DNA from: Candidatus Accumulibacter meliphilus
Lineage (GTDB): Bacteria; Pseudomonadota; Gammaproteobacteria; Burkholderiales; Rhodocyclaceae
Length of the DNA stretch: 51,885 nucleotides
Assembly: GCA_003332265.1 (NCBI GenBank)
Contig: QPGA01000009.1
Coordinates: 1 to 51,885, forward strand
Reading direction: 5' to 3'
Position numbers and translations under genes: made by a program. Below are positions 4,394 to 19,373 of the stretch, piece after piece. Each line of letters starts with the position of its first letter. Within the stretch, counting starts at the first letter, position 1. The notes under the pieces were generated by a model that saw nothing but the letters and a program-made list of their open reading frames with translations, was not told the origin of the DNA and searched no databases.

Positions 4394-6313
4394 ATGGTCA
4401 AAATCATTCAACAAGTCATCCGCTGGCTGTTCATGCGCATCGAGAACGTGTTCAACGTCGCTTTCGGCGACAAGATGAACCCCTTCTACCACCTCGGCAC
4501 GATCAGCTTCTGGCAATTCTGGTTGCTGCTCATCTCCGGCCTCTACCTTTACATCTTCGCCGACACCGGCGTCCATGACGCCTTCGAATCGGTCGAGAGC
4601 ATCACCCATGACCAGTGGTGGCTGGGCGGCATCCTGCGCAGCGTGCACCGCTACGCCACTGACGGCATGATTCTGACCATGCTGCTACACATGCTGCGGC
4701 ACTTCGCCTACGACCGCTATCGCGGCTTCCGCTCGTTTTCCTGGCTCACCGGCGTCGTCCTGCTGTGGCTGATCTACATCGCCGGCGTCAATGGCTTCAT
4801 GCTCGTCTGGGACAAGCTTGCGCAGTTCGTGGTCATCGCCACCGCCGAGTGGTTCGACATTCTGCCCATGTTCAACGGCACCCTGATCCGCAACTTCCTG
4901 TTCCTTGAAAACGTCAATAGCCGCCTGTTCACCCTGCTCGCCTTCCTGCACATCGGCATCCCGCTGATCATCGGCATCGTGATGTGGGTGCACGTGCAGC
5001 GCGTCCCGCGGGCGCACATCAATCCGCCGCGCCCGATCGCCATCGCCGTGACCCTGATGTTCCTGGCGCTGTCGCTGGTCAAGCCAATCCTCAGCCAGGG
5101 TGGCGAAGCCGACATGGCGGTAGTCCCGACCGGCATTGCCTTCGACTGGTTCGAGTTGCCGGTGCTGGCGCTGGTCTACGTCACCGACCCCCTGCACCTC
5201 TGGTTCTGGGTCATCGGCCTCAGCGTCCTGCTGCTCCTCGTTCCCTGGCTACCGCCGAAGCGACTCGGCTCGGCCAAGGCAGTGACCTCGATCACCTTCC
5301 AGCCCGATCACAGATCGGTCAGCGCCCGCTTTGGCGAAACCCTGCTCGACGCCGGCCTGCGTCAGGCCATCAACCTGCCCTACGAATGCCGTAACGGCGG
5401 CTGTGGCGTCTGCAAATGCACCGTCCTGCAAGGCAAGGTCGACCCCGGCCTGTACCAGCCGAGCGCGCTGTCCGACGCCGAACTGGCGCAGGGCAAAGTG
5501 CTCTCCTGCTGCGCCACCGCCCTCGAAGACGTGACCATCGAGTACCAGGCCAGTGCTGCCAGCAGCCGCATCCCGGAGTACACCGCCCGCGTCGTCAAGA
5601 TGGAGAAGCTCACCTACGACGTCATGCGCGTCCTGCTCAAACTGCCGGAAGGCCAGGCGATCAGCTTCAAGGCCGGCCAGTACGTGAACATCATCCTCGA
5701 CGACGGCCAGCGACGCGCCTTCTCCTTCGCCAACCCGCCGCACGAACCCGAGTTCGTCGAGTTGCAGATCCGTCTGATGACTGGCGGCAAGTTCACCACG
5801 CACGTCTTCGAGACGATGAAAGTAGGCGACGAGATCCGCTTCGAAGGCCCGATCGGCGACTTCAGCCTGCGCGAATCCGAGCGCCCGATCGTCTTCGTCG
5901 CCGGCGCCACCGGCTTCGCCCCGGTCAAGAGCATGGTCGAAGACGCTTTCAAGCGCGGTCTCAAGCGCCAGATCCATCTCTACTGGGGCGTCAGGACTCT
6001 CAAGGATCTCTACCTTCCCGAACTGCCGACGCGCTGGGCGCAGGAACACGACAACTTCCACTTCATCCCCGTGCTCTCCGAACCCGAGTCGGAAACCGCC
6101 TGGAGCGGCCGCACCGGCCTGGTCCACGAAGCCATCCTCGAAGACTTCCCCGAGCTCAAGGAACACGAAATCTACGCCTGCGGCTCGGTGCGCATGGTCG
6201 AAGCCATCTTCCCCTTCCTCAAGCAGCACGGTGCAGAAGACGGCGCCTGCTTCTCCGATGCCTTCAGCGTCTCGGCCAGGTCGATGGCCTTCCAGCCCAG
6301 GCAGCGGTCGTAG
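4394..6313 (+). CDS. Cytochrome b - [2Fe-2S] ferredoxin - flavin/NAD(P) oxidoreductase fusion
   Basis: A 639-residue fusion. Residues 1-290 are a cytochrome b/b6 domain with heme ligand pairs H85/H99 and H186/H200. Residues 296-385 are a plant-type [2Fe-2S] ferredoxin with C332, C337, C340 and C372. Residues 395-625 are a ferredoxin-NADP reductase-like module with FAD motif RAFSF (441-445), NAD(P) motif GATGFAPV (504-511) and CGSVRM near the end. It could pass electrons between quinol and NAD(P)H in either direction. From memory, a cytochrome b/b6 fused to flavin and NAD(P) domains was highlighted in Accumulibacter genome work as a possible route for anaerobic reoxidation of quinol. It is the third gene of the putative FNR-controlled operon, 106 bp after the preceding gene. 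Confidence 0.9.
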   Translation: MVKIIQQVIRWLFMRIENVFNVAFGDKMNPFYHLGTISFWQFWLLLISGLYLYIFADTGVHDAFESVESITHDQWWLGGILRSVHRYATDGMILTMLLHMLRHFAYDRYRGFRSFSWLTGVVLLWLIYIAGVNGFMLVWDKLAQFVVIATAEWFDILPMFNGTLIRNFLFLENVNSRLFTLLAFLHIGIPLIIGIVMWVHVQRVPRAHINPPRPIAIAVTLMFLALSLVKPILSQGGEADMAVVPTGIAFDWFELPVLALVYVTDPLHLWFWVIGLSVLLLLVPWLPPKRLGSAKAVTSITFQPDHRSVSARFGETLLDAGLRQAINLPYECRNGGCGVCKCTVLQGKVDPGLYQPSALSDAELAQGKVLSCCATALEDVTIEYQASAASSRIPEYTARVVKMEKLTYDVMRVLLKLPEGQAISFKAGQYVNIILDDGQRRAFSFANPPHEPEFVELQIRLMTGGKFTTHVFETMKVGDEIRFEGPIGDFSLRESERPIVFVAGATGFAPVKSMVEDAFKRGLKRQIHLYWGVRTLKDLYLPELPTRWAQEHDNFHFIPVLSEPESETAWSGRTGLVHEAILEDFPELKEHEIYACGSVRMVEAIFPFLKQHGAEDGACFSDAFSVSARSMAFQPRQRS

Positions 6314-6361
6314 CCCGCCGGGGGCCTGGAGAGACTGATCACCCGCGCCAGCCGCTTCGAG

Positions 6362-6400
6362 CCCCTCGCCCCTCGCGGGAGAGGGGTTGGGGAGAGGGGG
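6362..6400. repeat. GC-rich hairpin repeat (CCCCTC...GAGGGGTTGGGGAGAGGGG type)
   Basis: A short inverted repeat, CCCCTCGC / GCGGGAGAGGGG, followed by TTGGGGAGAGGGG. The same unit recurs near 16580, 17170 and 17761, and in inverted form near 16963 and 17551. Repeats of this type are common between genes in proteobacterial genomes. Confidence 0.6.
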
Positions 6401-6456
6401 CCAGCAGCCAGTCAACCGCCCCCAGCCAACATCCACCCCTTCGCCAGGACAAGCCC

Positions 6457-6804
6457 ATGATCACCGTCATCGTCGAATTCAAGCTCCCCCAGACTCTGTC
6501 CAGAGAACAGGCCCAGGCCACTTTCCAGAGCACGGCGCCAAAATACCAGGGCATGCCCGGCCTGATTCGCAAGTACTACTTTCTTTCCGAAGACGGCAAC
6601 CGCGCTGGCGGCATCTATCTCTGGAACACGCGTGCCGACGCCGATCGGGTCTACACGCAAGAATGGAAAGCCTTCGTCCGCGGCAAATACGCCAGCGAGC
6701 CGTCGCTCACCTTCCTCGAATGCCCGCTGGTCGTCGACAACCTCACGCAGGAAATCATTGCCGACCAGGCAGTTCAAGGCGAGATAGCGCCCGCCACTCG
6801 GTAA
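6457..6804 (+). CDS. YdhR-like dimeric alpha-beta barrel (monooxygenase-like) protein
   Basis: A 115-residue protein resembling the YdhR/antibiotic biosynthesis monooxygenase fold. The family pattern is an N-terminal strand ending in VEFKLP, then PGLIRKYYF, GGIYLWNTR and a C-terminal strand around FLECPLVV. No cofactor site is obvious; catalytic activity is not established for the family. I chose the ATG at 6457 because the upstream open frame runs through the GC-rich repeat and is antisense-like to the preceding gene. It is followed 28 bp later by a thioesterase gene and may be co-transcribed with it. Confidence 0.75.
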   Translation: MITVIVEFKLPQTLSREQAQATFQSTAPKYQGMPGLIRKYYFLSEDGNRAGGIYLWNTRADADRVYTQEWKAFVRGKYASEPSLTFLECPLVVDNLTQEIIADQAVQGEIAPATR

Positions 6805-6832
6805 CGCCCACCACTACAGAAAGGAAGCAAAA

Positions 6833-7309
6833 ATGCCCGACAAAGCTTTTCAGGATTTTTATCCGGAGGATTTCAGTCATTGCTACGGATGCGGCAAAAG
6901 CAATGAACACGGCCATCATTTGAAGAGCTATTGGGATGGCGAGACGACCGTTGCCCGCTTTACACCCCGGCACTACCACACCGGCGGCGTCCCCGGCAAT
7001 GTCTACGGCGGGCTGATTGCCTCCCTGCTTGATTGCCACGGAGCCGCATCGGCGGCGGCCGCCGCGTGCAAGGCAGAAGGTCGCGAAATGGGCGGCGCGC
7101 CGCCGATGCGCTTTGTCACCGCCTCGCTCAAGGTCGACTATCTCCGCCCGACGCCCATCGACGCCGAACTGGAAGTCCGCGGCGAAATCGTCGAAGTCAA
7201 AGCGCGCAAAGTCACCGTCAGCCTGTCCTTGACTGCCCATGGCGAAGTTTGCGCGCGCGGACACATGATCGCCGTGCGACTGCCCGATGCGGCAGCGAAA
7301 AAGCATTAG
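6833..7309 (+). CDS. PaaI-type hotdog-fold thioesterase
   Basis: A 158-residue hotdog protein likely to hydrolyse acyl- or aryl-CoA thioesters. The segment GGVPGNVYGGLIASLLDCHG includes the helix and the catalytic-type Asp of PaaI/YbgC relatives; LKVDYLRPTP and GHMIAVRL are typical hotdog strands. The N-terminus has CYGCGKSNEHG, a Cys-rich start found in one PaaI subgroup. AGAAAGGAAG upstream serves as ribosome binding site. Confidence 0.8.
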   Translation: MPDKAFQDFYPEDFSHCYGCGKSNEHGHHLKSYWDGETTVARFTPRHYHTGGVPGNVYGGLIASLLDCHGAASAAAAACKAEGREMGGAPPMRFVTASLKVDYLRPTPIDAELEVRGEIVEVKARKVTVSLSLTAHGEVCARGHMIAVRLPDAAAKKH

Positions 7310-7396
7310 GCAGGCTGCGACGACGGCATAGCCGAAACCTTGGCCGGCTTAACGGGAAGCCCTGAACCATGCAGGCTGCCAGCGAAAAGCGCCGAA

Positions 7397-7416
7397 GCGG
7401 GGGAAGTCTCCCCCGC
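7397..7416. other. 8-bp hairpin downstream of variable repeat 1
   Basis: A perfect stem GCGGGGGA / TCCCCCGC with a 4-base loop (GACT on the coding minus strand). It lies about 70 bp beyond the end of variable repeat 1 and 58 bp after the stop codon of the target gene. An identical hairpin lies at the same distance after variable repeat 2 (12918-12937). DGR targets elsewhere carry a hairpin just after the variable repeat that stimulates retrohoming; this may be that element, or a terminator. Confidence 0.6.
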
Positions 7417-7473
7417 ACCCCCTCCAGAGTCAGCGCACCCGAGCTCCAGAGGCCAGAGGAGCAGAGGCCAGAG

Positions 7474-10400
7474 CTACTCAACAGGGGAAGAACGCAACAC
7501 CACCCGGAAACCGAAGTAGCGGCTACGGTAGCCGGGAACGCCCCAGCTGCGATAGGCGCAGCGCGCGAGGTAACGAGGGGAGCCCCACGAGCCGCCGCGA
7601 ACGACCCTTGGAACGTCGTCAGCCGCGCGCAGATCCTCGCGGCCATCGTCAGGGTGATAGGGATACGGCTTGTAAAGGCTGCGCGTCCATTCAAACGCGT
7701 TGCCAATCATGTCGTACAGGCCGAAATCGTTGGCCATAAAGCAGCCGACAGCGGACGTGTCGCCGATCCCCGAGTCAGCATAGTTGGCCCGAGACGGGTC
7801 AACGTCATTACCCCAGGAGAAGACCGCACCCCGCAACCCGCCACGAGCGGCTTTTTCCCACTCCAGCTCGCTGGGCAGTGCAAGCCTCCACTGGTGCTGG
7901 CGCACGAGCCTGCCCGCGTCACTGCCCTCGAACAGCGGCGAACCGGCAAGCTGTTCGTTCAGCCACTCACAGTACGCGATAGCCTCATGCCAGCTCACCC
8001 ACTGCACCGCTCGGCTGTCCGGGTTTCGCAACGAGTCAGCATCGCCGATCTCGTAGTGCGCCGCCTCGACGAAGGCGCGGAACTGCGCGACGGTGACCGG
8101 GTAGCGCGCGATAAGGTACTCCGGCGTCGGCGTCGGCGCGTCATTGATTTCGCGATCATCCACCTCGCGGCCGACGATCTTCGCCACCCGCTCCACATCC
8201 ACCTTGCGAGTACCGATCCGGAACTCGGGGTCAGCCGCAATGCGCACAAAACCGAGCATCTCGTCGGCCGGCAGCCAGAAGCGCTCTTGGTCAAACCGCG
8301 GGTCGCCCAGCGCCGAAAGCACATCGCCCGCACGCGCACGAACAACCGGCATGGCAGCTCGCAGCGTCGACTCGTCTGCCAACAGTTCAACGATCCTCCG
8401 CGCGCAACCGCCGCGGGTGGCTTCGCCGCATTCGAGATCGGAAAGCGCCGCCGTGCCCGCCAGTTCGGCTGCCGAGAACTGCGCGTTCGGCTCGCCACCG
8501 ACCCTGGCCAGCGCTCCGAGAAAATCGCGCGCCGACTTGGCGGCATTGCTCGCCCGGTAGCCAGCCAGCAATAGAATCGGCTCGCGCCACCATGGATCGT
8601 CGAGGCGGTCGCCGAGCACGGCAAGGATCGCTTCACGGCCCTCGTCGCCGGTGACTTCGCGCAGGTAGCGCGCCACCAGGAATTCCTGAAAAGCCAGATG
8701 AATGAAGCGATAGGCGCCCTGTCGCTCCTCCAGCACGCTGCCGCGCTGACGGGCGTGGCTGAGGAAGAGGTCAATGTGCGGCCGAAATTCGGCCTCCTCA
8801 CGCAAGACCTTCTGCAACGCCCGCTCACCGATCTCGCGCCCCTGGTCACGCCCCTGCTGGTGCATGTGAAAAGCGAGATGCTGCGCCATGTCGCGAAACA
8901 CCTTCCAGTCGCTGGCCAACTCGCGGATGTCGGCCTGCTCGCGTCCGTAGTCGACTTGCAGCAAGGCGCTGATCGCCTTGTCGAAGAGCTCCGCGCGCCC
9001 GTCAGGAAGCGTGCGGTTGTTCACATGCACGATCAGCAACAGGCGCACCATCAGCGGACTGTCGACCAGCACCTGCGCATCGTCGCCGAGGCGCGTGCGG
9101 CGGTCGTCCTCGAGCCGCCGAATGCCACCCAGGAGTTCCTGCACCCGCTCGCTGCGCAAATCGGCGTCCTGCGGGTGAATACAGGCGTACGCCTGGCGCA
9201 CCATCGGTACGACGTGTTGCTCGAAATCGAGCGGCTGCACGGCAATCTCACGGAACCTCACGCCCAGCGCAGTACCGCCGCTGCGGTAGGCGATCGTGCG
9301 ACAGGTGACAACGACGCGCATGCGCTCCTGGCCACTGACCAATTCCTCGACCGACGCACGCACTTCGGCGCGCTCTTCTTCATTGGCGACCTCATCGAGC
9401 CCGTCGAGCAACAGGATCACCGGCCGCCCGTCCCTGAGGAGTTGTACGAAGAAATCGTCGGGCAGATCGACGTCGGCCTGCTTCCTTATCAGGTGATACG
9501 AGATGAAGTGTGTCAGCGTCCTCTCGCGTGCCGGTGCGTTGGCCGGCCGCTCGCGGCGGAAGCGGGCGAACGACGCGAGCGGCACAAAGATCGGCAAGGG
9601 CAGTTCGCTGGTAGCGACCACCGCCAAACCGAGGCGCGACTGCGCCGGCTCCGCCTGCCCGGTGAGCAGTGAAGACGCCAGCGCCCACGCCATGTGCAGC
9701 AGTACTGTCGTCTTGCCTGACCCTGGCCCGCCGATGATCACCAGGCGGTTGCCGAGACCGAGCACCTGGTTGAGGTCAATATCGCTGTCGCGCTCACGCT
9801 CATCGGGTTCTGTTTTCTCGCCAGCGTCACCGCGGCTGCGGGGGCGAGGGAGAGACTGCGCTGCCATCTTGTCCTGCGCGTCACCGGGCCGCGGGATCGG
9901 TCGGGCACGCAGCGGCACATAGGCCGCCTCCAGCGGCAGGGACACCACCAGCGCGCCCCCCGCACGTTCGATGCCGCGCAGCTCGATGGACTCGGTATAG
10001 CTACGCAGCCAGCGCAGATAGCCGTCGACCGGGTAGGCCCTGCCGGCCGTCGGGCCGGCGTCGACCTTGGGTGACTTTTGCGACTGCTCAGGCTGGTGCG
10101 ACGCGACTCGGATCGAGCCGCTTGCAAGCAGCTTATCCAATTGTTGATTGAACTCATGCTTCAGCTGGTCGGTGTTCGTGTAACGCGTTGGGAAGTGCTC
10201 CAGGAGCTTGAGCTTGTCCTCGAACGCCCACAAGCTTGCCATATCAGCCCGGTTGACACTGGCATAGCTGATCTGCACGTCCTTGAAATAGGTGAAGATC
10301 AAGGGCCTGCCGGTGGCCTTGAATTGCGCGTGGGCGGTCTCGAATTCTTCGTCGGTGTAGCGACCAACCTTGCTCCCGACCAACGTTACAAAAAGGTCGC

Positions 10401-10599
10401 ATTCGCGAATCGCCTGGTTGTACTCGTCCTGCAACCGAGTCTTCGACATGGCATTGAGGAAGTCTTCCCAGAGCACCACCTCGATGACGACACCCCGCGG
10501 ACGTAAAGCCTTGTTCTTGCGGCTGATGCAGAGCTCAAACTCCTTCCGCTCCTCGCAGAATTCGGAGGACGAGGCAAGGAAGAGCTTGTTCGTGGTCAT
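7474..10599 (-). CDS. DGR target protein 1: DUF4062/TIR-like - NACHT - FGE/C-type-lectin-like
   Basis: 1041 residues. The N-terminus (1-110), starting KLFLASSSEF and including WEDF and ECDLF, is a DUF4062/TIR-like putative effector or signalling domain. A NACHT/STAND NTPase follows, with Walker A GGPGSGKTT at 290-298 and Walker B VILLLDGLDE near 398-407, then a helical region. Residues ~780-1041 are a formylglycine-generating-enzyme-like (FGE-sulfatase/C-type lectin) domain with FEWTR and VRGGSW. The last residues are encoded by the variable repeat. Start ATG 10599 aligns exactly with target 2 (MTTNKLFLA versus MTTKKLFLA). I infer a sensor whose ligand-binding surface is diversified by the retroelement; antiviral or self/non-self recognition is likely but not shown. 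Confidence 0.9.
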   Translation of the reverse strand: MTTNKLFLASSSEFCEERKEFELCISRKNKALRPRGVVIEVVLWEDFLNAMSKTRLQDEYNQAIRECDLFVTLVGSKVGRYTDEEFETAHAQFKATGRPLIFTYFKDVQISYASVNRADMASLWAFEDKLKLLEHFPTRYTNTDQLKHEFNQQLDKLLASGSIRVASHQPEQSQKSPKVDAGPTAGRAYPVDGYLRWLRSYTESIELRGIERAGGALVVSLPLEAAYVPLRARPIPRPGDAQDKMAAQSLPRPRSRGDAGEKTEPDERERDSDIDLNQVLGLGNRLVIIGGPGSGKTTVLLHMAWALASSLLTGQAEPAQSRLGLAVVATSELPLPIFVPLASFARFRRERPANAPARERTLTHFISYHLIRKQADVDLPDDFFVQLLRDGRPVILLLDGLDEVANEEERAEVRASVEELVSGQERMRVVVTCRTIAYRSGGTALGVRFREIAVQPLDFEQHVVPMVRQAYACIHPQDADLRSERVQELLGGIRRLEDDRRTRLGDDAQVLVDSPLMVRLLLIVHVNNRTLPDGRAELFDKAISALLQVDYGREQADIRELASDWKVFRDMAQHLAFHMHQQGRDQGREIGERALQKVLREEAEFRPHIDLFLSHARQRGSVLEERQGAYRFIHLAFQEFLVARYLREVTGDEGREAILAVLGDRLDDPWWREPILLLAGYRASNAAKSARDFLGALARVGGEPNAQFSAAELAGTAALSDLECGEATRGGCARRIVELLADESTLRAAMPVVRARAGDVLSALGDPRFDQERFWLPADEMLGFVRIAADPEFRIGTRKVDVERVAKIVGREVDDREINDAPTPTPEYLIARYPVTVAQFRAFVEAAHYEIGDADSLRNPDSRAVQWVSWHEAIAYCEWLNEQLAGSPLFEGSDAGRLVRQHQWRLALPSELEWEKAARGGLRGAVFSWGNDVDPSRANYADSGIGDTSAVGCFMANDFGLYDMIGNAFEWTRSLYKPYPYHPDDGREDLRAADDVPRVVRGGSWGSPRYLARCAYRSWGVPGYRSRYFGFRVVLRSSPVE
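7485..7609 (-). repeat. DGR variable repeat 1 (VR1)
   Basis: 125 bp aligned without gaps to the template at 12734-12858. On the coding (minus) strand, VR1 differs from the template at 20 positions and every one is an adenine in the template; there are no other mismatches. Changes concentrate in the AAC codons: GSWNN becomes GSWGS, PRNNAR becomes PRYLAR. The repeat ends 8 bp inside the target stop codon. Confidence 0.97.
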
Positions 10600-10916
10600 C
10601 GTGGCGGTTCCTGGAGGCGTTTCGCGGCACAGTATAGCCAAACAGCAGCGAGAAAGAACGACGACTCCGCTCTACTGGCCGAGCCTGGGGCTCTCGCCAT
10701 CCGTGAAGCGTTTGTCTGCCTACCGTGCAAGCCGCATCCGTGACCCACCAGTGGAGGACAAGTCCATGAGTCAGACGATGGCGCTGGACTGCCGCGTCGC
10801 GACGCTCCTCGCAGTGACGGCACGGGGTACGCGGGTGCAATGGCCGCAAGACAGCAGCTTTCGTGATCGACCGCATCGGAACACAGGCCATCACGTACTT
10901 GAACCTGGCGCCGTGG
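10600..10916. other. Gap between target gene 1 and the reverse transcriptase
   Basis: No gene is seen in 317 bp. The first ~70 bp are the promoter and leader of target gene 1 and match the region upstream of target gene 2. The remainder has no recognised feature. Confidence 0.6.
10631..10636 (-). promoter_or_regulatory. -10 box shared by both DGR target genes, copy 1
   Basis: On the minus strand GGCTATACTG contains a near-consensus -10 (TATACT) 31 bp before the start codon. The same block, including the CCTCCAGG leader, is found 32 bp before target gene 2, which supports a conserved promoter. No clear -35 box is seen in either copy. Confidence 0.45.
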
Positions 10917-12014
10917 TCATGCGCTCGGTTTCGGAATCGGATGGCTTGCAAACACGTGCTCGCGCAAGCCCCAGGTATCGGCGTAGCGCACGTGGTTGAT
11001 CCAGCCCTGCACGCTGGCATCGAGTTCGCCAAACGAGAGCTTGCCGGCCTGGTAATCGTCCAGGTTGCGAGCCAGCCGACGGGTGAAATTCACCGCGTTA
11101 CGCCGTTTGAGCAAGCGGCGCGCGGGGTAGACGACGAAACCGAGCCAGGGGATGCCACAGCGCGTCGGCAGCACCTGCGCCTGTGGTTCGTGGATCGTCA
11201 GCCGCTCGCGCCCAAGACGGGCAACGATCGCCTCTTTCCACTCGGCAAGCACGGCCTTGCTGTCGCCGAACAGGGCAAAATCGTCCACGTAGCGCAAATA
11301 AGCGCCGCAGCCCAGTTCACGCTGGACGAACCAGTCGAAGTCATTGAGAAAGACGTTCGACCAGAACTGCGAGGTCAGATTGCCGATCGGCAAGCCGCGT
11401 GGACGGCAGGCGGCGAGCAGGTCGTCGCCCGGAAAATAGACGGGCGTGTACTCAGTCGTGAGCGCGCCGACGCCACTGGCAAGGATGCTGTCGACCAGCC
11501 ACATTACCTCTTCATCCGCGATCACGCGCGCGAGCTTGGCGCGCAGCAGCGCATGATCCAGCGACGGGAAATGCTGGACGATGTCGGCACGCAGTACGTA
11601 GCGATGACGACACGCCAGCTCCTGCAAGCGGTCGACCGCGCGATGCGTCCCCTTGCCGCGACGATTCGCGTAACTGTGCGTGACAAAGCCCGCCTCACAG
11701 ATCGGCTCGATCACATTGCACAGCGCATGATGGACGACGCGGTCGACAAAGGGCGCGGCGCTGATCTTCCGCCGCTTTGGTTCGTGAATAAAAAAATGAC
11801 GGTAGGCGCCGGGCCGATAGGTCCGTGTTCGCAACGCGCTCTGCAAGGCGATCAAGCGATCGGCAAGCGCTTGCTCGAAGTCCGCTGCGCTATCTTTGCG
11901 GCGCTTGCCGCGTGCGGCCAGACGATAGGCGCGCCAGAGGTTGTCCCAGTCGGTAATCGCTGCGAACAGGGGTTCAATTTGTCGCGCTTCGTGAATTTGG
12001 CGCTCTTGCCGCAT
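10917..12014 (-). CDS. Diversity-generating retroelement reverse transcriptase
   Basis: 365 residues, the normal size of a DGR RT. Motif A is [13 protein letters not shown] (142-154, catalytic D144). The region before the catalytic loop reads [10 protein letters not shown] (207-216), where DGR RTs have GxxxSQ instead of the QGxxxSP of retrons and group II introns. The catalytic loop is YVDD at 242-245. Start ATG 12014 has GGAG six bases upstream. It copies the template RNA with errors at adenines and drives replacement of the variable repeats. It is transcribed in the same direction as both targets and the template, but opposite to the Avd gene 43 bp away. Confidence 0.95.
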
Positions 12015-12057
12015 CTGCTCCGCCTGCCCAATCGAACACTTCGAGGATTATTCCCCC

Positions 12058-12462
12058 ATGCCACCGACCAAAGAACTGGTGATCTTCACCCAAACCTACG
12101 ACTTGCTGAGCTGGCTGCTTCCTCAGTGCGAACGCTTCCCAAAGAGCCAGCGCTTTGTCATCACGCAGCGTCTGCAGGGCGCAGCGCTGAATTTTCAGGA
12201 AGAGGTCTTCGAAGCGAATGCGCGCAGTGGAGCGCAGCGACTGCAGCATCTGCAGGCGGCCGACGCGCAGCTCAACAAACTGCGGCTTTACCTGCGCCTT
12301 TCGCGACAGTGGGACTGGCTGAGCAGCGGCCAGTACGAGCACGCCAGCCGCATGGTCGCCGAGATTGGCCGCCTGCTCGGCGGCTGGCTCAAGCAGACCC
12401 GTTCGGGCGTGCAGGCCAGGCCCGGCGGCACCACGCGCAGCGACGACTCGGATTCTGGATGA
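12058..12462 (+). CDS. avd: DGR accessory protein, Avd-like four-helix bundle
   Basis: 134 residues resembling Avd, the pentameric barrel-like partner that binds the RT and the template RNA. Visible Avd features are the early helix LVIFTQTYDLLSWLLP, the central LNKLRLYLRLSRQ and the terminal VAEIGRLLGGWLKQTR, close to LIAEVGRILGSW in the Bordetella phage protein. Basic residues suit nucleic-acid binding. The ORF on the opposite strand lacks similarity. The orientation is unusual: it diverges from the RT with only 43 bp between start codons, and it would be transcribed toward the template repeat, antisense to it. Confidence 0.85.
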   Translation: MPPTKELVIFTQTYDLLSWLLPQCERFPKSQRFVITQRLQGAALNFQEEVFEANARSGAQRLQHLQAADAQLNKLRLYLRLSRQWDWLSSGQYEHASRMVAEIGRLLGGWLKQTRSGVQARPGGTTRSDDSDSG

Positions 12463-12484
12463 GCATCGTCGGGAGGGGCGGGCC

Positions 12485-12586
12485 ACGGCGGGCGCGATGG
12501 CCTGGCCGTGCCCTGGTTTGACTATCTGCCCGGCGCAGGCGATGCCCCTGCTGTCGCCCTGCCTCGCGGCATGCGCACGGACCAGA
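12485..12586 (+). repeat. ~100-bp dispersed repeat, copy 1
   Basis: A block starting ACGGCGGGCGCGATGGCCTG and ending CGGACCAGA, nearly identical to 17030-17130 and 17622-17723, where it is part of the DUF559 tandem unit. The frame around VPWFDYLPG is open in this copy but no start or family is recognised. Confidence 0.8.
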
Positions 12587-12693
12587 CCTGTCTGGCGCTG
12601 TTCTTCTTCCTTCGCCTCGGCGGGCAAAACCACTTGCGCGGATCGGCCCGCATTTCCGGAACGTGGTCGGCGCGGGTGCACCGTTACGCCATC

Positions 12694-12707
12694 CCGCCTC
12701 GCGGCGG
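12694..12707 (-). other. GNRA-type hairpin 3' of the template repeat
   Basis: On the minus strand CCGCC-GCGA-GGCGG forms a 5-bp stem closed by a GCGA tetraloop, 27 bp beyond the 3' end of the template repeat. If the template RNA extends this far it could be a structural element recognised by RT or Avd. Confidence 0.4.
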
Positions 12708-12733
12708 AACCAGAAGAAGGGTGAGAAGGACGT

Positions 12734-12858
12734 GGGAAGAACGCAACACCACCCGGAAACCGATGTTGTTGTTACGGTTGTCGGGATCGTTCCTGTTGCG
12801 ATAGGCGCAGCGCGCGTTGTTACGAGGGTTGTTCCACGAGCCGCCGCGAACGACCTTT
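12734..12858 (-). repeat. DGR template repeat (TR)
   Basis: 125 bp, non-coding, lying between avd and target gene 2 and read on the minus strand. Translated in the target frame it gives [14 protein letters not shown], then clusters of N codons, and ends GFRVVLRSS. Ten AAC codons mark the adenine-rich diversification sites. It contains 28 adenines on this strand, and all differences in both variable repeats fall on them. Identity with both repeats breaks abruptly on each side, giving its limits. Confidence 0.97.
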
Positions 12859-12867
12859 CCAGACTGC

Positions 12868-12893
12868 CTGGCCGGATGTCGCCACCCGGCCAG
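12868..12893. other. 8-bp hairpin 5' of the template repeat
   Basis: A perfect inverted repeat CTGGCCGG / CCGGCCAG with a 10-base loop lies 9 bp from the 5' (minus-strand) end of the template repeat. It is absent from the flanks of the variable repeats, so it belongs to the template side and could fold in the template RNA. Confidence 0.5.
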
Positions 12894-12917
12894 TGAATGA
12901 TAGCGAAAAATAGCGCC

Positions 12918-12937
12918 GCGGGGGAAGTCTCCCCCGC
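12918..12937. other. 8-bp hairpin downstream of variable repeat 2
   Basis: The same GCGGGGGA / TCCCCCGC stem and loop as at 7397-7416, in an ~88-bp block that is nearly identical after both target genes. On the minus strand a run of five T follows after six bases, so a terminator role is also possible here. Confidence 0.6.
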
Positions 12938-12994
12938 ACCCCCTCCAGAGTCAGCGCACCCGAGCTCCAGAGTCCAGAGGAACAGAGGACAGGG

Positions 12995-15900
12995 CTACTC
13001 AACAGGGGAAGAACGCAACACCACCCGGAAACCGATGCCGTCGAAACGGTTGCCGGGACCGACCCTGAAGCGACAGGCGCAGCGCGCGACGTCACGAGGG
13101 AAGCCCCACGAGCCGCCGCGAACGACCCGCATGACATCATTCCCTGCATCAAGCGCCTCACGCTTTCCGTCGTCCGGGTCGTACGGATAGCCGAACTCGG
13201 GCTTGAATATGTCGCTTCCCCAGAGGCTACGCGTCCACTCCCACACGTTCCCGGCCATGTCTTCGCAGTCGTAAGGGCTGCGCCCAAGCTGAAAACAACC
13301 CGCCGCGCTGGTGCTTCCCACGTCTACCTCGGCGTTGGCGTGATCCGTTGCGAAATCCTCGCCCCAGGGATAAGCGCGCTGCGGAAACGGATTCTCGCAA
13401 AGCTCGGACGCGACCAACGCAAAACCCTGCGCGACCGTCGTCATCTGCAATCGCACCGGTAGCTGCTCGCCACCGCGCGCAGCCTTCTCCCATTCCGCCT
13501 CCGACGGCAGTGCCACACTCCAGCCCGCGGGAAGCTGGTTCTGCCACCGTTCAGTCAACCATCGACAGAAGGCTTGCGCGTCGTACCAGGATACCTCCGT
13601 CACCGGCCGATTCTCGACATTCTGCAAGCTTTCCGCAGAATGTTTCTGATAGCCGCTCTCGGTAACAAACTGCCTGAACTGAGCCACGCTCACCGGCGTC
13701 TGCGCAATCCAGTAGTCGCGACCAAGTCCAGCAAGGCGATGCAGCAGGGCGCCGTCGTCACCCGCCTCACCCATCCAGAACGCACCACCCGGTACAAGGC
13801 TGAAGCGCATCTCATCCACATCCAGCAGATGCTGGCGTGTCTCGCCAAGGCGCGCCAACAAGTCACCCGCCAGCACCCGCTCGCGCGCCGGCAATACCGT
13901 ACTGCGCAGCACACACAACTGCCAATCACGCACCCGCCGGCGCTTGCGCTCGTGGCGTTCCTGAAGGCCTGGATCGGCGGCAGCCAGTCCGGTTTCAAAC
14001 AGCACCTGTCCGGCCAGCAGCGCGCCCCATTGCGCCTCGCTGTCCGGCTCCGGCCCATCGTCCGCCGGCGCCGGATCCTTGGCGCATAGTTCGTCGACGA
14101 GTTCCCAGATTGAACTCGGCGTTGCGCGCGAGCGCGCCGCCGCGAGCAGCAGGACCTCGCGCCAGCGGTTGGGGTCGCTCCTACCCAGCCGGCTCAAGCT
14201 GTCCGGGTAATCGAAGCGCACCAGGTGACAGGCCGCCAGGTACTCCTGGAAGGAACGGTGCGGAAACTGGTACAAGCCCTCGCCGTGCGAAGTCAGCAGG
14301 CCGGCGCGGTCGCGCAGGTATTCCTCCAGTCGCAGCGGGCGCGTGTCGGCGCGTTCCTTGCCGGCGGCCAGCAAAGCCGCAATCAGGTCAGCCTGACGGA
14401 TATCGGCCGTACCGATCAGCGTCGGCTGATCGAGATGCGCATGGTAGGCGAGCTTGTCCAACTCGCGGCGAATATTCTCGCGGCTGGCGTTCAACCACTC
14501 GCTCAGGCTCGGCTCTTCGACGATCGTTGCCCCTGTCGCCTGGTCGCGTCGCAGTTTCAGACCTTCCCACTCATCGAGCAGCATATCGACCGACTGCGCG
14601 TAAAGTGCCTCGCGGTTCTCCGGCAGCGAGCCGCCACTCTTGGTCTGCAGGCGCGCCATAAGCGTGAGCAGCAGCGGTCGCCCGGCAAGTTCGGCGAGTT
14701 CCTCACGCCGGGTCGCGCGCTTGAGCACTTCGGCACGCGCCTGCGCGTCGGCCTCGGTCAGGCGGAACAGGTCATGCGCCATGTGTGCGTACCAGGTAGC
14801 GATGAAACGCTCGATCTGCCCACGCGTGAAAGGCAGCAGCTCGCGCTCGGCGAAGGCATTCAGTTTCCAGTCCTGGCGCTGGTAAGCATAGGTGCGCGTG
14901 GTGACCAGGAAGCGGCAAGCGCGACGCATGCCCGCGAACTCCTGCACCGCCTGCTTCACCTGCTCACGCCGGCGCAGCGCGTCGGGCACTTCGTCGAGCC
15001 CATCGAGCAGGATCAGCCCACCCTTGCCCAGCAGTTCGGCGTGCAGGTCTTCGGCGTAAGGCTTGAGGTGCTCGGGCAACTGGCTGACGATGAAATTCCA
15101 CAGCGCGTCGGCGGTCATGCAGCTGCCCGGCGGCGGCAGAGCGGCGGCGAAATCGCGCAGTACCACGCGTACCGGCAGCAGCGCCTGGTGCGACCAGGCT
15201 TGCGGCTTGGATTCTTTCTCCGCATTGTCCGGGTCCGGGTCCGGGTCCGGGCGTGCATCTGGCTCCGGCGGAATTGGCGCGCACAGGATTTCGAGGTCCG
15301 GCGCACGGCCCAGCATCTCGCCGGCCATGCAAAGCGCCACGAAATTGAGAAAAGTCGTCTTGCCGCTGCCGGGACCACCCATCAGCACCAGACAGCGCTC
15401 CTGGTCGAGCGCCTCGAGCGCCGACTGTCGATTAGCGTCGCCGCCTGAACCAGCACCGGCCAACGCATGGTTGCTGCCCGCGGCGGCGCGCAGCAGCCGC
15501 GCCGCGTCGGGATCTAGTGAATTCACGTCGCCAACATCGCGCGCTTCGGTCAACAGCGCCGTGTAAACCGACGACAGTTGCACCGGCTTGCCACTATCCG
15601 AAGCGAACAGCGGCAACTCGTTGGCACGCAGGCTCACCCAGTCCAGATACGCCTTGCGCAATTCCGCGCTGCTCGCACGCGAAAGCGCAGCAGACTGAAG
15701 CGCAGGCCTGACGTCCGCCGCCCCTGCCTCGCCCTGCTGCAACCCAAGTTTGATAACGCCTCTCTCGACCAGTTTGTCGAGTTGCTGGTTGAACTTGTAC
15801 TTCAGTTCGTCGATATTCTTGTAGACAGTCTGGTAGTGTCCCAGCGCTTTCAGTTTTTCCTCGAATGTCCGCAGGCTCGTCAGATCAGCAAGGTCAATGC

Positions 15901-16240
15901 TGCGAATACTGGTTTCCGCTGCGTTGAAATAGGTGAAGATCAAAGGCTTTCCGATGGCCTTGAACTGCCCCAGTGCGGTTTCGAATTCTTCGTCGGTGTA
16001 GCGACCGACCTTGCTCCCGAACAACATCACGAAGAGATCACATTCGCGAATCGCCTGGTTGTATTCGTCCTGTAGCCGAGTCTTCGACATGGCATCCAGA
16101 AAATCCTCCCAGAGGACGACCTCGATGAACACGCCCCGAGCATGCAATTCCTTGTTTTTGCGGCCAATGAAGAGCTCAAACTCCTTCCGCTCCTCGCAGA
16201 ATTCGGAGGACGAGGCAAGGAAGAGTTTCTTGGTGGTCAT
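12995..16240 (-). CDS. DGR target protein 2: DUF4062/TIR-like - NACHT - FGE/C-type-lectin-like
   Basis: 1081 residues with the same layout as target 1. The N-terminal ~107 residues are about 80% identical to target 1. The NACHT NTPase has Walker A GGPGSGKTT at 288-296 and Walker B LILLDGLDEV near 410. The middle is strongly diverged. The FGE-like domain runs from ~803 (VPGGAFWMG, LPSEAEWEKAARGG, GNVWEWTR) to the variable repeat. Start ATG 16240 is set by alignment with target 1; the frame stays open to 16987 but overlaps a DUF559 gene on the other strand. An acidic DPDPDP run is encoded by a hexamer repeat at 15228-15251. Probable second diversified sensor. Confidence 0.9.
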   Translation of the reverse strand: MTTKKLFLASSSEFCEERKEFELFIGRKNKELHARGVFIEVVLWEDFLDAMSKTRLQDEYNQAIRECDLFVMLFGSKVGRYTDEEFETALGQFKAIGKPLIFTYFNAAETSIRSIDLADLTSLRTFEEKLKALGHYQTVYKNIDELKYKFNQQLDKLVERGVIKLGLQQGEAGAADVRPALQSAALSRASSAELRKAYLDWVSLRANELPLFASDSGKPVQLSSVYTALLTEARDVGDVNSLDPDAARLLRAAAGSNHALAGAGSGGDANRQSALEALDQERCLVLMGGPGSGKTTFLNFVALCMAGEMLGRAPDLEILCAPIPPEPDARPDPDPDPDNAEKESKPQAWSHQALLPVRVVLRDFAAALPPPGSCMTADALWNFIVSQLPEHLKPYAEDLHAELLGKGGLILLDGLDEVPDALRRREQVKQAVQEFAGMRRACRFLVTTRTYAYQRQDWKLNAFAERELLPFTRGQIERFIATWYAHMAHDLFRLTEADAQARAEVLKRATRREELAELAGRPLLLTLMARLQTKSGGSLPENREALYAQSVDMLLDEWEGLKLRRDQATGATIVEEPSLSEWLNASRENIRRELDKLAYHAHLDQPTLIGTADIRQADLIAALLAAGKERADTRPLRLEEYLRDRAGLLTSHGEGLYQFPHRSFQEYLAACHLVRFDYPDSLSRLGRSDPNRWREVLLLAAARSRATPSSIWELVDELCAKDPAPADDGPEPDSEAQWGALLAGQVLFETGLAAADPGLQERHERKRRRVRDWQLCVLRSTVLPARERVLAGDLLARLGETRQHLLDVDEMRFSLVPGGAFWMGEAGDDGALLHRLAGLGRDYWIAQTPVSVAQFRQFVTESGYQKHSAESLQNVENRPVTEVSWYDAQAFCRWLTERWQNQLPAGWSVALPSEAEWEKAARGGEQLPVRLQMTTVAQGFALVASELCENPFPQRAYPWGEDFATDHANAEVDVGSTSAAGCFQLGRSPYDCEDMAGNVWEWTRSLWGSDIFKPEFGYPYDPDDGKREALDAGNDVMRVVRGGSWGFPRDVARCACRFRVGPGNRFDGIGFRVVLRSSPVE
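13006..13130 (-). repeat. DGR variable repeat 2 (VR2)
   Basis: Aligned to the template without gaps over 125 bp. It differs at 22 positions, all adenines in the template, and nowhere else. The pattern is independent of VR1: GSWNN becomes GSWGF, PRNNAR becomes PRDVAR, CAYR becomes CACR. So both target genes have been diversified separately from the one template. Confidence 0.97.
15228..15251. repeat. Hexamer microsatellite in target gene 2
   Basis: Four tandem copies of a 6-bp GGTCCG-type unit encode an Asp-Pro repeat in the linker of the NACHT domain. The copy number may vary by slippage without breaking the frame. Confidence 0.6.
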
Positions 16241-16579
16241 CGTGACGGTTCCCTGGAGGCGTGTCGCCGGACAGTATAGCCAAGCGGCCACGAGAAAGAG
16301 CGGCAACTCCGCCCGCCCACCCGGCGCTGCCGCTTTTGCCGTCCGGGAAGCACTCCCATACCAAGCACGCTGCATCGCTCCGCCGTGAATCAAGGACAAC
16401 GGCCATGGCTCGCCACACGCCCACCGGCGGGCGCGGCCAAACCGATCACCAGGATAATCGCCACAAGCTGCGCGCCGGCACCCCGAACGCACGACACGGT
16501 GAGCACAGCCACGCAGCGTCGCCAACACGCGAGCAACATGTTCGCCACGACAAACCGACCACGCCAGCAGCACCACTAG
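16241..16579. other. Leader of target gene 2 and unassigned sequence
   Basis: The ~40 bp next to the gene match the leader and -10 region of target gene 1. The remaining ~300 bp have no recognisable gene; the sequence just before 16554 is the left edge of the DUF559 tandem array. Confidence 0.5.
16273..16278 (-). promoter_or_regulatory. -10 box shared by both DGR target genes, copy 2
   Basis: TATACT on the minus strand, 32 bp before the start of target gene 2, within a block conserved with the upstream region of target gene 1. Confidence 0.45.
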
Positions 16580-16627
16580 CCCCTCGCCCCTCGTGGGAGA
16601 GGGGTTGGGGAGAGGGGGAGAAAGCCA

Positions 16628-17011
16628 ATGCCCAAGCACGACTTCGTCAAATCCCTGCGCCAGAACATGACCGACGCCGAAAGTCTCCTCTGGCGCCACC
16701 TGCGAGCGCATCGCCTGGGCGGCGTGAAATTCAGGCGCCAGCAAGCGATTGGCCCGTACGTCGTCGATTTCGTGCATTTCGGTGCTCGTGTCGTCGTAGA
16801 AGCGGACGGCGGACAGCACAATGAATCGCTGGCCGACGAGAAACGCGATGCCTGGTTGACGGCTCAGGGATTCCGAATAATGCGCTTCTGGAACAACGAC
16901 ATACTGAATGACACTGCGGCGGTTCTGGAGGTGGTGATGGCGGAAGTGGAACGTGGCTCCCCCTCTCCCCCAGCCCCTCCCCCGCAAGGGGGGAGGGGAG
17001 CAGGCAGGTGA
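16628..17011 (+). CDS. DUF559 (Vsr-like) endonuclease-domain protein, copy 1
   Basis: 127 residues. The DUF559 domain has a PD-(D/E)XK fold related to very-short-patch-repair nucleases. Visible motifs are LWRHLRAHRLGGVKFRRQ, then YVVDFVHF with the acidic Asp, VVVEADGGQH and the terminal RFWNNDIL. The C-terminal Pro/Gly-rich tail (SPSPPAPPPQGGRG) is encoded by the GC-rich intergenic repeat and is probably not part of the domain. Function is unknown; the neighbourhood (DGR, hsdR, Fic) suggests an accessory or defence context. Confidence 0.8.
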   Translation: MPKHDFVKSLRQNMTDAESLLWRHLRAHRLGGVKFRRQQAIGPYVVDFVHFGARVVVEADGGQHNESLADEKRDAWLTAQGFRIMRFWNNDILNDTAAVLEVVMAEVERGSPSPPAPPPQGGRGAGR

Positions 17012-17029
17012 ATGGCCGCACTGCCGACA

Positions 17030-17130
17030 ACGGCGGGCGCGATGGCCTGGCCGTGCCCTGGTTGACTATCTGCCCGGCACAGGCGATGCCCCTGCTGTCG
17101 CCCTGCCTCGCGGCACGCGCGCGGACCAGA
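17030..17130 (+). repeat. ~100-bp dispersed repeat, copy 2
   Basis: Nearly identical to 12485-12586 and 17622-17723, with one base missing in the GGTTTGAC segment. It lies between two DUF559 copies in the tandem unit. Confidence 0.8.
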
Positions 17131-17219
17131 TTGGCGACGCAGTAACCCGACCACGCCGATAGCACCACTAGCCCCTCTCCCCTCGTGGGAGAGGGGTTGG
17201 GGAGAGGGGGAGAAAACCA

Positions 17220-17603
17220 ATGCCCAAGCACGACTTCGTCAAATCCCTGCGCCAAAACATGACCGACGCCGAAAGTCTCCTCTGGCGCCACCTGCGAGCG
17301 CATCGCCTGGGCGGCGTGAAATTCAGGCGCCAGCAAGCGATTGGCCCGTACGTCGTCGATTTCGTGCATTTCGGTGCTCGTGTCGTCGTAGAAGCGGACG
17401 GCGGACAGCACAATGAATCACTGGCCGACGAGAAACGCGATGCCTGGTTGACGGCTCAGGGATTCCGAATAATGCGCTTCTGGAACAACGACATACTGAA
17501 TGACACTGCGGCGGTTCTGGAGGCGGTGATGGCGGAAGTTGAACGTGCTTCCCCCTCTCCCCCAACCCCTCCCCCACAAGGGGGGAGGGGAGCAGGCGGG
17601 TAA
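17220..17603 (+). CDS. DUF559 (Vsr-like) endonuclease-domain protein, copy 2
   Basis: 127 residues, almost identical to copy 1 (few changes, mostly synonymous or in the low-complexity tail, e.g. AVLEV to AVLEA). The catalytic-type residues are retained, so it could be active. It is the second unit of the tandem array; the near identity argues for a recent duplication or gene conversion. Confidence 0.8.
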   Translation: MPKHDFVKSLRQNMTDAESLLWRHLRAHRLGGVKFRRQQAIGPYVVDFVHFGARVVVEADGGQHNESLADEKRDAWLTAQGFRIMRFWNNDILNDTAAVLEAVMAEVERASPSPPTPPPQGGRGAGG

Positions 17604-17621
17604 ATGGCCGCACTGCCGACA

Positions 17622-17723
17622 ACGGCGGGCACAATGGCCTGGCCGTGCCCTGGTTTGACTATCTGCCCGGCGCAGGCGATGCCCCTGCTGTCGCCCTGCC
17701 TCGCGGCATGCGCACGGACCAGA
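17622..17723 (+). repeat. ~100-bp dispersed repeat, copy 3
   Basis: Third copy of the block seen at 12485 and 17030; closest to copy 1 in sequence (GGTTTGAC and GGCATGCGC retained). Confidence 0.8.
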
Positions 17724-17810
17724 TTGGCAGCAGTAAACCGACCACGCCGGAAGCACCACTAGCCCCTCTCCCCTCGTGGGAGAGGGGTTGGGGAGAGGGG
17801 GACAAAACCA

Positions 17811-17826
17811 ATGCCCAAGCACGAAT
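17811..17826 (+). pseudogene. DUF559 gene copy 3, truncated after about five codons
   Basis: ATGCCCAAGCACGA is identical to the start of the two full copies and lies 591 bp after copy 2. The sequence then switches at GAATTC to hsdR-like sequence on the other strand. Confidence 0.8.
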
Positions 17827-19352
17827 TCTGAAATACCGAGCTGTGCGCCTCGTCGATGATGATCAGATCGAAATGGCCGGCGCCGAAGCGACGCTGGCCG
17901 CCCGCCGTTCCCGTACTTCCCCCTTCACGCCCTCCGCGCCCACTGCGCTCCACCGCAATCTCGTCGATCAGCCCCATCATCGTCGGATAGGTCGAGACGA
18001 AGACGCGCCCGTCGGCGTACCTGTCGGTGACCAGATTCACCGGCGACGCGTCGGGCAGGTGATGCTTGAAGGCGTTGACCGCCTGCCTGACCAGCGCCAC
18101 GCGGTCGGCGAGAAAGAGCACGCGCTTGACCCAGTTGCTGCGCATCAGCAGGTCGCAGAGGGCGATCACCGTGCGCGTCTTGCCGGCGCCGGTGGCCATC
18201 ACCAGCAGCGCCTTGCGCTCGTGGTCGCGCTCGAAGCTTTCGGCGACGCGGCGGATGCTGCGCTTATGGTAAAAGGCGCCCGGCGATCGCCTCGTCGATT
18301 GCCGCCGCAGCCAGTGGCTTGCGCAGGCTGCGGCGCTGCATCAGCCACGCCAGCTCGTCCTTCTTGCCGAAGCCCTGCACCGCGCGCGGCGGGTCGTTGC
18401 TGTCGTCCCACAGCCAGTGCTCGTAGCCGTTCGAGTAATAGATCAGCGGCCGCTGGCCGAACTGCCGTTCCAGGCAGTCGGCGTAGGGCCGCGCCTGCTG
18501 CTGGCCGACGCGCGCATCGCGACGCGTACGCTTGGCTTCGACAACCGCCAGCGGCTTGCCGTCGTCGCCCCACAGCACGTAATCGACGAAGCCCCTGCCC
18601 TCACTGCTGGGCATGCCGCCGACCTCGAACTCGCGCGACGCGGGCCGGCCCGGCTGCGGATCGAGCAGCCAGCCGGCTTCCTTGAGCAGCAGGTCGATGA
18701 AAAAGTGGCGCGTTTCGTCTTCCGAATAGTCGTGCGTATCGGCCTCGGCCGCTGCCGCCCGTCTGGCGGCGGCGACTTCGGCACGCAGCCGCGTCAGCTC
18801 GTCGTCGAGCGCGGCCTTGTCGGCGTGCACCTGCGCGAGCGCCTCGTCGCGCTCGCGCAACTCGGCTTCGAGCCGCTGCAGGGCTGCGGCGCTTTGCGCT
18901 GGAGCCGGCGCCGGCATGGCTGAGGAGTTCGGCAGCGCGGCGGCGTCGAAAGCCAGCCCCGGCGCCAGCCGCGCCACGCGGCCATAAGTGCGTGCCAGCC
19001 AGAAAGCGACATGGAACAGCTCGCGCACGGCGACCAGCGCATCTTCGCTCGGCATCGCGCGCGGGCCATGGACGGCGCGGTTGCCGAGAGCCACGATCAC
19101 CCGCGCCTTGCTGAATACCGCCTCGCCGGCCGCCTGCTTGAAACTCGGCTCGTGGATCAGCGCCGAGATCCGGTTCTGGTACGGCAGCTTGAGGGCGGGG
19201 TCGTGCTTGTAGGCCCAGGCCAGCGCCAGTTCGAGCGAGCGGCGGGCGTAGAAACAGGCGCTGCGCGGGTCGGCGTGCGCCGCCGCTTCGGCGCGTGTGG
19301 CGGCGTCGAACACCGCCGGCCATTCGCGATCAAGGAAGGAGAACGGGCTCAC
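17827..19352 (-). pseudogene. Type I restriction HsdR-like gene, frameshifted and 3'-truncated
   Basis: The first 358 or so residues (from ATG 19352) hold a DUF4145 domain (YARRSLELALAW), a coiled coil, and an HsdR_N nuclease core (FVDYVLWGDDGKPLAVVEAKR). A single extra G in the GGG near 18284 shifts the frame and gives a stop at 18264. In the other frame the protein continues as AFYHKRSIRRVAESF, then Walker A MATGAGKT and IIIDEAH, before being cut at the DUF559 repeat. The helicase second half and any hsdM/hsdS are missing, so it cannot encode a working restriction enzyme. Confidence 0.85.
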
Positions 19353-19373
19353 GGCGGCTTCACCCCGTTCGTT

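Follow-up and report, generated by a model that had tools for sequence, protein, structure and literature searches.

Diversity-generating retroelements (DGRs) are elements that randomly alter short segments of particular genes. The literature already describes them in Candidatus Accumulibacter, and it also describes DGRs that act on NACHT sensors in bacteria of this sort. In clade 5D of Dore et al. 2024 (PMC10907252), as far as the accessible portion of that paper goes, a DGR commonly has two targets, in which a central STAND/NACHT domain is combined with a C-type-lectin end and in some cases TIR; the same portion describes multiple DGRs per genome, with degenerate loci beside complete ones, and names Accumulibacter for multiple related DGRs. 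Degenerate loci beside complete ones have also been published for Thiohalocapsa PB-PSB1. The available part of the DiGReF survey of 2012 (PMC3521204) gives DGRs of different structural types in one Accumulibacter, infers that the RNAs of the template repeat (TR) and of the reverse transcriptase (RT) are transcribed apart, and already reports or proposes TR and RT on different strands and a variable repeat (VR) opposite to the TR. In the section at hand, PMC6642488 counts 122 cassette patterns by the order of TR, VR and RT. For BPP-1, the excerpted text of PMC12875486 describes a spacer 3' of the TR that folds, recruits RT-Avd and primes complementary DNA (cDNA) from an internal adenine, and it states that reverse transcription stops at a motif in the 5' flank. 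Here, we report on a stretch of 51,885 nucleotides (hereafter the window), i.e., bases 1-51885 of a 110 kb contig in a 4.70 Mb assembly of 120 contigs with a completeness of about 91%, whose host, judged from its sequence, is Candidatus Accumulibacter, a wastewater bacterium. With a probability of roughly 0.93, a locus in this window is a complete chromosomal DGR, an element whose kind and whose host genus are both known from earlier publications. Beyond a preliminary description of the same DNA, our analysis adds the TIR-like and NACHT parts of the two targets and a structured RNA.

Repeats and genes of the element

The TR (12734-12858), VR1 (7485-7609) and VR2 (13006-13130) all lie on the minus strand and were compared ungapped over 125 bp, of which 28 positions are A in the TR and 97 are not. 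VR1 differs from the TR by 20 mismatches (A>G 9, A>T 8, A>C 3) and VR2 by 22 (A>G 13, A>T 8, A>C 1). All of these (42/42) fall on template adenines, the non-A positions being free of mismatches in VR1 (0/97) and in VR2 (0/97); under random placement the chance of such an outcome is 4e-17 and 2e-19, respectively. The two VRs differ from each other at 19 positions. We thus reproduced exactly the coordinates and counts of the preliminary description, which had given 20 and 22 changes of 28 adenines and no other mismatch over 125 bp. The changed codons, read in frame, are AAC, AGG, GAT, GAC, TAT, ATC and AAG together with one partial codon at the start, and the changes create no stop in VR1 or VR2. 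A whole-genome search with the TR returned seven matches, i.e., TR, VR1, VR2 and four others at 71-83% identity. The non-A share of mismatches in these four is 14/16 and 14/28 on contig C41, 12/31 on C44 and 28/38 on C27, and they were rejected as current targets of the window TR; because they differ at non-A positions, the assembly, at about 91% completeness, yielded no further current target.

Comparison with a relative bears on past action. The nearest named loci, in Candidatus Accumulibacter regalis (L096) and A. appositus (L097), are syntenic with the window and have RTs 91% identical to its RT; the aligned locus of A. regalis is only about 86% identical in DNA. The TRs of the window and of A. 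regalis differ at 7 of 125 positions. At these seven positions the window VRs carry the window base in 14/14 cells, and the A. regalis VRs, which have 21 and 18 of 30 A changed relative to their own TR and no other position, carry the A. regalis base in 12/14, the other two cells being changed template adenines. The VRs follow their own TR where the templates differ, and therefore appear to have been rewritten after the split from A. regalis. This strengthens the earlier suggestion that the system would have acted on each target separately. L096 2365-13000 differs from L097 by only 9 positions over about 10.6 kb including the whole DGR, and just outside this shared stretch there is about 10% divergence on one side and 0-2% on the other, a pattern that suggests either that the locus was exchanged recently or that the assembly is at fault.

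The RT (10917-12014, minus strand, 365 aa) has an open frame with the motifs IGNLTSQ, which fits (I/V/L)GxxxSQ, and YVDD, so that GNLTSQ and YVDD bear out the GxxxSQ motif and intact YVDD noted before. Its best solved relative by sequence is 8ub7_A (E 3.6e-47), from an entry that contains RT and Avd together, with group II intron RTs next at 5e-16. A 35-row tree separates 32 SQ-motif RTs, BPP-1 included, from three group-II-like RTs (100/100) and pairs the window RT with that of A. regalis (100/100) inside a 20-row set (99/99), mostly Pseudomonadota, Chloroflexota, Acidobacteriota or Poribacteria by name; 11/32 inner branches of this tree are weak and BPP-1 sits on a long branch. Of the 38 loci listed as input, three had no RT match and L131 was dropped for its short frame. 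The preliminary description had named an RT outside the DGR clade as the result that would speak against it; the window RT groups with SQ-motif RTs including BPP-1. A stop in the A. regalis RT (1 TAG in a search table) was ruled out, the translated L096 and L097 running without a stop over 361 codons.

Avd (12058-12462, plus strand, 134 aa) is antisense to RT, TR and both targets. Its open frame passes NCBIfam NF033474 with 101.3 bits against a cut-off of 80, matches Pfam bAvd, and by sequence matches two solved structures, the Avd of 8ub7 (8ub7_B) and Bbp7 of 4dwl. Both target genes are on the minus strand and open to the stop, their starts inferred at the ATGs at 10599 and 16240 on the complement: target 1 (7474-10599, 1041 aa) ends in VR1 and target 2 (12995-16240, 1081 aa) in VR2. 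They share one domain order, i.e., an N-terminal TIR/DUF4062-like domain, a central NACHT NTPase and a C-terminal FGE-sulfatase (C-type-lectin-like) domain that holds the VR. Pfam gives FGE-sulfatase at 6e-42 and NACHT at 2.1e-9 in target 1, with TIR_2 under cut-off, and FGE-sulfatase at 8.1e-44, NACHT at 4.3e-8 and TIR_2 at 1.3e-5 in target 2. Against the TIR_2 cut-off of 28, the whole proteins score 26.1 and 20.6 and the isolated target 2 domain scores 29.5. Isolated N-terminal domains match TIR_2, DUF4062 and NPHP3 in 7/7 homologues (E up to 0.1), and a profile of this domain searched against solved structures gave no convincing relative (best E 0.6). From this domain content the diversified targets are probably sensors of invaders, in which the FGE-type face is varied and the NACHT and TIR-like parts give the response. 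The complete DGR claimed earlier is supported by the main features that can be read from the DNA, i.e., A-only changes, RT, Avd and two FGE-ended targets.

Template RNA and its flanks

Related loci were taken as the best 80 of 93. Eight Accumulibacter loci (L048-L055) conserve 42 nt 5' and about 200 nt 3' of the TR, with the exception of L054, which leaves the alignment after about 100 nt, its 3' region entering the RT tail. The core of the TR RNA (12568-12736, minus strand), proposed from covariation and from a covariance model (R1), would be a closing stem around three hairpins, followed by a fourth hairpin. In an alignment of 20 loci over about 170 nt 3' of the TR there are 48 consensus pairs, 20 of them compensated. 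Paired cells make up 96.0% vs 86.0% in shuffles, the covariation score is 0.354 vs 0.162 (standard deviation 0.009), none of 500 shuffles reaches the values of the RNA on any of five measures, and pairing falls to 41-49% when partners are slid by 1-3 columns. Please note that kinship can lift related sequences above such shuffles; the count of pairs and of their types is the stricter measure. The template RNA thus appears to have a conserved folded frame. The 3' part of the proposed RNA (12463-12567, minus strand) shows conserved hairpins in an alignment and RNAalifold analysis of 15 loci run without a control, the stem of the terminal one varying on both sides by eye. A hairpin 5' of the TR (12870-12891, minus strand; GGCCGG ... 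CCGGCC) is similar in related loci.

R1 scores the window, one of its training sequences, at 182.8 bits. Across 95 sources it gave 40 matches at E up to 0.1, i.e., 15 from training, the duplicate L097 and 24 new ones, which include Chloroflexi, Acidobacteria, Poribacteria and Gammaproteobacteria. By the kept-pair criterion given below, a TR was found beside 18 of the 24, and in 18/18 no more than about 25 nt separate the start of the match from the 3' end of the TR, both being on the same strand; beside the other six (L117, L136, L114, L162, L163, L037) no TR/VR pair was found. A second model, R2, built from 37 matches, gave 40 matches in 84 sources (24 training and 16 new). Under a stricter filter, R2 matched 14/61 genomes from the search for relatives, all of the same genus, and 3/274 genomes sampled from the class, the host being included in both counts. 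Rfam (4227 families) gave no match at gathering score over 5000-20000, nor up to E 1 over 12460-12910. We found no printed DGR covariance model or conserved DGR RNA in a literature search of an open library. Handa et al. 2025 reportedly describe the mechanisms as probably conserved in distant taxa.

Two further features flank the template. A long-range helix possibly brackets the TR, with the strand GTCTGG directly 5' of it (12859-12864) and CCAGAC 3' of it (12590-12595), both on the minus strand. Paired changes are seen elsewhere, i.e., TTCCGG/CCGGAA in L109, GTCTGC/GCAGAC in L167, AACCTG/CAGGTT in L113 and L125, and CCCGG/CCGGG in L105, L110, L116 and L122. Over 40 related loci the mean best score of this helix is 5.56, compared with 4.81 (standard deviation 0.14) for permuted partners, of which 0/400 were as high; this count includes loci whose upstream stretch was mis-anchored (the window, L096 and L138 at least) and L134, which was placed by hand. 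A -10-like element, TATCAT (12897-12902, minus strand), is a candidate promoter of the TR RNA. Such a hexamer (TAnnnT, at least 5/6) occurs 5' of the TR in 12/28 loci, against a shuffle mean of 2.7 and a maximum of 7 in 500; the near-identical L096 and L097 are each counted here and in the architecture survey below.

Downstream of the VRs, a hairpin with a perfect 8-bp stem and a 4-nt loop lies 68 nt 3' of VR1 (7397-7416, minus strand), a candidate homing hairpin or terminator; a hairpin identical in sequence, also terminator-like by score, lies 68 nt 3' of VR2 (12918-12937, minus strand), and this sequence occurs twice in A. regalis as well. Separately, a 102-bp piece of the 3' region of the TR RNA (12485-12586, minus strand) is repeated at 17030-17130 and 17622-17723 (minus strand) with 96% and 98% identity. 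These two copies, the only others found in a genome search, adjoin DUF559 genes that are arrayed in tandem with GC-rich repeats. We do not favour the idea that the RT copied the spacer into these sites, the differences being few and showing no A pattern by eye.

Architecture of related loci and loci with an RT tail

The architecture survey covers 60 RT loci (the window and 59 of the 80); 21 partial-RT loci were left out, of which 16 were scanned separately for TR and VR. A TR/VR pair was kept if the A share of its mismatches was at least 80% (60 RT loci), 70% (partial-RT loci) or 65% (seven loci picked for an RNA match); the 1083/1133 mismatches at A over the surveyed pairs are not independent evidence, because the pairs were preselected for A bias. 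The avd gene is on the strand opposite to the RT in 50 loci, on the same strand in six, on both in one and was not found in three. Pairs were kept in 42/60 loci, and in 16/42 the VR is inverted relative to the TR; both window VRs run the same way as the TR. Where avd is antisense and the TR lies upstream on the RT strand, avd sits between TR and RT in 34/34 loci. A statement on antisense avd was not found in a literature search limited to an open library. The Chloroflexi locus L151 has two avd-like frames around one RT, one antisense and one sense (7667-8053, minus; 8944-9408, plus).

The same genome holds more DGR material. Contig C27 carries a second DGR, with an RT 45-46% identical, with avd, RT and TR on one strand and with a VR in which 16/20 mismatches are at A. 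On C41 there are one TR and two VRs (16/18 and 20/22 mismatches at A), without an RT that we could find; in some relatives a TR matching that of C41 has an RT nearby. C47 and C36 hold RT remnants, that of C47 being an RT tail with an RNA remnant. There are 23 FGE-sulfatase matches in the genome, several in long open frames (C44:65976-66632, C46, C2, C25, C34 and others), and some of these frames may be former DGR targets. We examined 14 stretches, taken around FGE matches and on C99, together with the window: C99, C27 and C41 showed A-biased TR/VR pairs, and there were weaker A-biased matches to C44. In the window itself, genes with a type I restriction HSDR_N-like domain and a Fic domain lie near the DGR (18264-20543, minus strand).

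Several related loci keep TR, RNA and VRs with only an RT tail and no full avd. A TR/VR pair was found in 5/16 of the partial-RT loci scanned and in 3/7 of the loci picked for an RNA match. With gaps counted and frames checked, 11/11 mismatches are at A in L172 and the target is open; the target is also open in L168 (13/14), as are both targets in L167 (18/19 and 16/20) and in L165 (14/16 and 13/14). L158 has 21/25 with one gap. L223 (19/26 and 16/24), L224 (12/15 with two gaps, and 21/24) and L221 look like decaying loci by sequence. L221 was rejected as a working locus without an RT, since its 13/13 at A comes with one gap that shifts the frame of the target and its other target has 13/21 with three gaps. 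In L054/L223 (G008 contig 1), L167, L168 and L037 the 3' region of the RNA is almost directly joined to the RT tail, as after internal deletions. Of the 80 loci, 15 match only from RT residue 222 on and none matches in the N-terminal half only, a peptide-pattern search that may be biased.

One could suppose that in this DGR lineage the TR RNA stands alone as a folded guide, transcribed from a promoter of its own, that this RNA instead of an adjacent RT gene would define the working unit, and that loci with TR, RNA and open targets and without avd and a catalytic RT are non-autonomous DGRs diversified in trans by RT-Avd made elsewhere. One RT could then serve a growing set of sensor genes. We regard this as quite unlikely. 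When the genomes of L165, L167, L168, L172 and L158 were searched for RTs, full-length open DGR-like RTs were found only in that of L167, which has two that are 44-45% identical plus one of 58-59% in two pieces; the other four, whose assemblies may be incomplete, gave the RT tail itself or else distant (28-33%) or short matches. Trans supply is less likely because L221 is decaying and only one of the five searched genomes has full-length DGR-type RTs, and with so little support, recent loss of the RT is therefore the simpler reading of these loci. The L167 genome (G335, a Zoogloea sp. record) has 12 RT matches beside its RT-less DGR locus, at least two of them full-length and DGR-like.

Proposed mechanism, rival explanations and known systems

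In the mechanism that we propose, the TR RNA would be transcribed from the minus strand, probably as its own transcript, and the 5' hairpin, perhaps the long-range helix, and the folded 3' domain would hold the template for RT-Avd, which presumably binds them. The RT-Avd complex would copy the TR RNA into cDNA, misreading adenines, and the cDNA would replace the 3' end of either target gene; with each round, the surface at the FGE-type end of a TIR-like/NACHT protein would be renewed.

Several points weigh against this reading. The sensor role is taken from domain content, and present activity of the window DGR is inferred from sequence. A. regalis and A. appositus do not differ in the TR or in either VR, so no rewriting is visible since both came to share the locus. 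The compensated pairs of the RNA all lie in helices 3-7; closing stems 1 and 2 and hairpins 8 and 9 hardly vary and lack covariation support. The bracketing helix competes with hairpin 8, the fourth core hairpin, for the same CCAGAC, so the two pairings are alternatives. No -35/-10 consensus promoter was found for the TR RNA, and the VR hairpins, at 68 nt and with the loop GACT, are outside the 4-34 bp and GRNA given for phages. Neither R1 nor R2 matches the template sets on C27 and C41 of the same genome, and R2 also misses BPP-1 and two further phages; for this reason we gave up the idea of a single RNA fold for all DGRs.

The DGR may have worked in the past and now be silent, its VRs frozen products, which we consider unlikely. 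The identity of TR and VRs between A. regalis and A. appositus would fit a silent element, and so would the decayed DGRs of the same genome, i.e., C41, with no RT found and 2/18 and 2/22 mismatches at non-A positions, and C47 with its RT tail and RNA remnant. Against this, RT, Avd and both targets are open, the 97 non-A positions are clean in both VRs, and the VRs have kept in step with the template of their own locus since A. regalis split off, even though the locus has diverged to only about 86% identity. It is scarcely credible that the repeats arose by simple duplication and that gene conversion has since kept them similar. The 3' ends of the targets are alike over 227 bp at 88%, a stretch running beyond the VR, and therefore a duplication did occur; gene conversion, however, would not restrict every difference to template adenines, and RT and Avd sit between the copies.

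It is doubtful, yet not far-fetched, that the diversified proteins are no defence sensors and serve some other recognition (kin, surfaces, small ligands) or act as a modified FGE-like enzyme. The FGE fold also occurs in enzymes, and the FGE domains of the targets match EgtB, SenA, PvdO and formylglycine-generating enzyme as well, those from NCBIfam scoring under the cut-offs; according to the accessible portion of PMC10907252, the lectin-type domains of STAND targets have yet to be characterised experimentally. The fusion to NACHT and a TIR-like domain argues instead for defence, as do matches of the targets to the NACHT antiphage protein EruA, which are weak and far under the model cut-off, and the architecture class shared with the published NACHT group of that same portion. 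We retain the reading of a complete DGR that varies probable sensors, and the element agrees with what has been published on NACHT sensors that mutate themselves in aggregate-forming bacteria. The RNA anatomy is the part that matters more and is most worth following. The covariance model finds template RNAs in several phyla and could spot DGRs of this lineage that lack a visible VR, are decayed or have no RT, and the conserved stems are sites for mutations that probe the mutual recognition of template RNA and RT-Avd.

Among known systems, clade 5D is like the window in having two targets with a central NACHT and, here, a C-terminal FGE-type end, a likeness of architecture. The RNA structure and the possible bracketing helix of the window do not appear in the accessible portion of PMC10907252. 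In the available part of PMC3521204 the term avd has 0 occurrences, whereas the window has an antisense avd. The VR hairpins, with their 8-bp stem and 4-nt loop, resemble GC-rich phage hairpins in part only and differ from them in distance and loop sequence. With BPP-1 (AY029185; PMC12875486 and PMC3240598, in their accessible portions) the window shares RT, Avd, TR, VR and a structured RNA 3' of the TR, and the two RTs are about 35% identical. In BPP-1 a single strand carries avd, then TR, then RT, and the target is a phage tail protein, whereas in the window avd is antisense, between the TR RNA and the RT, and the targets are TIR-like/NACHT/FGE-sulfatase proteins.

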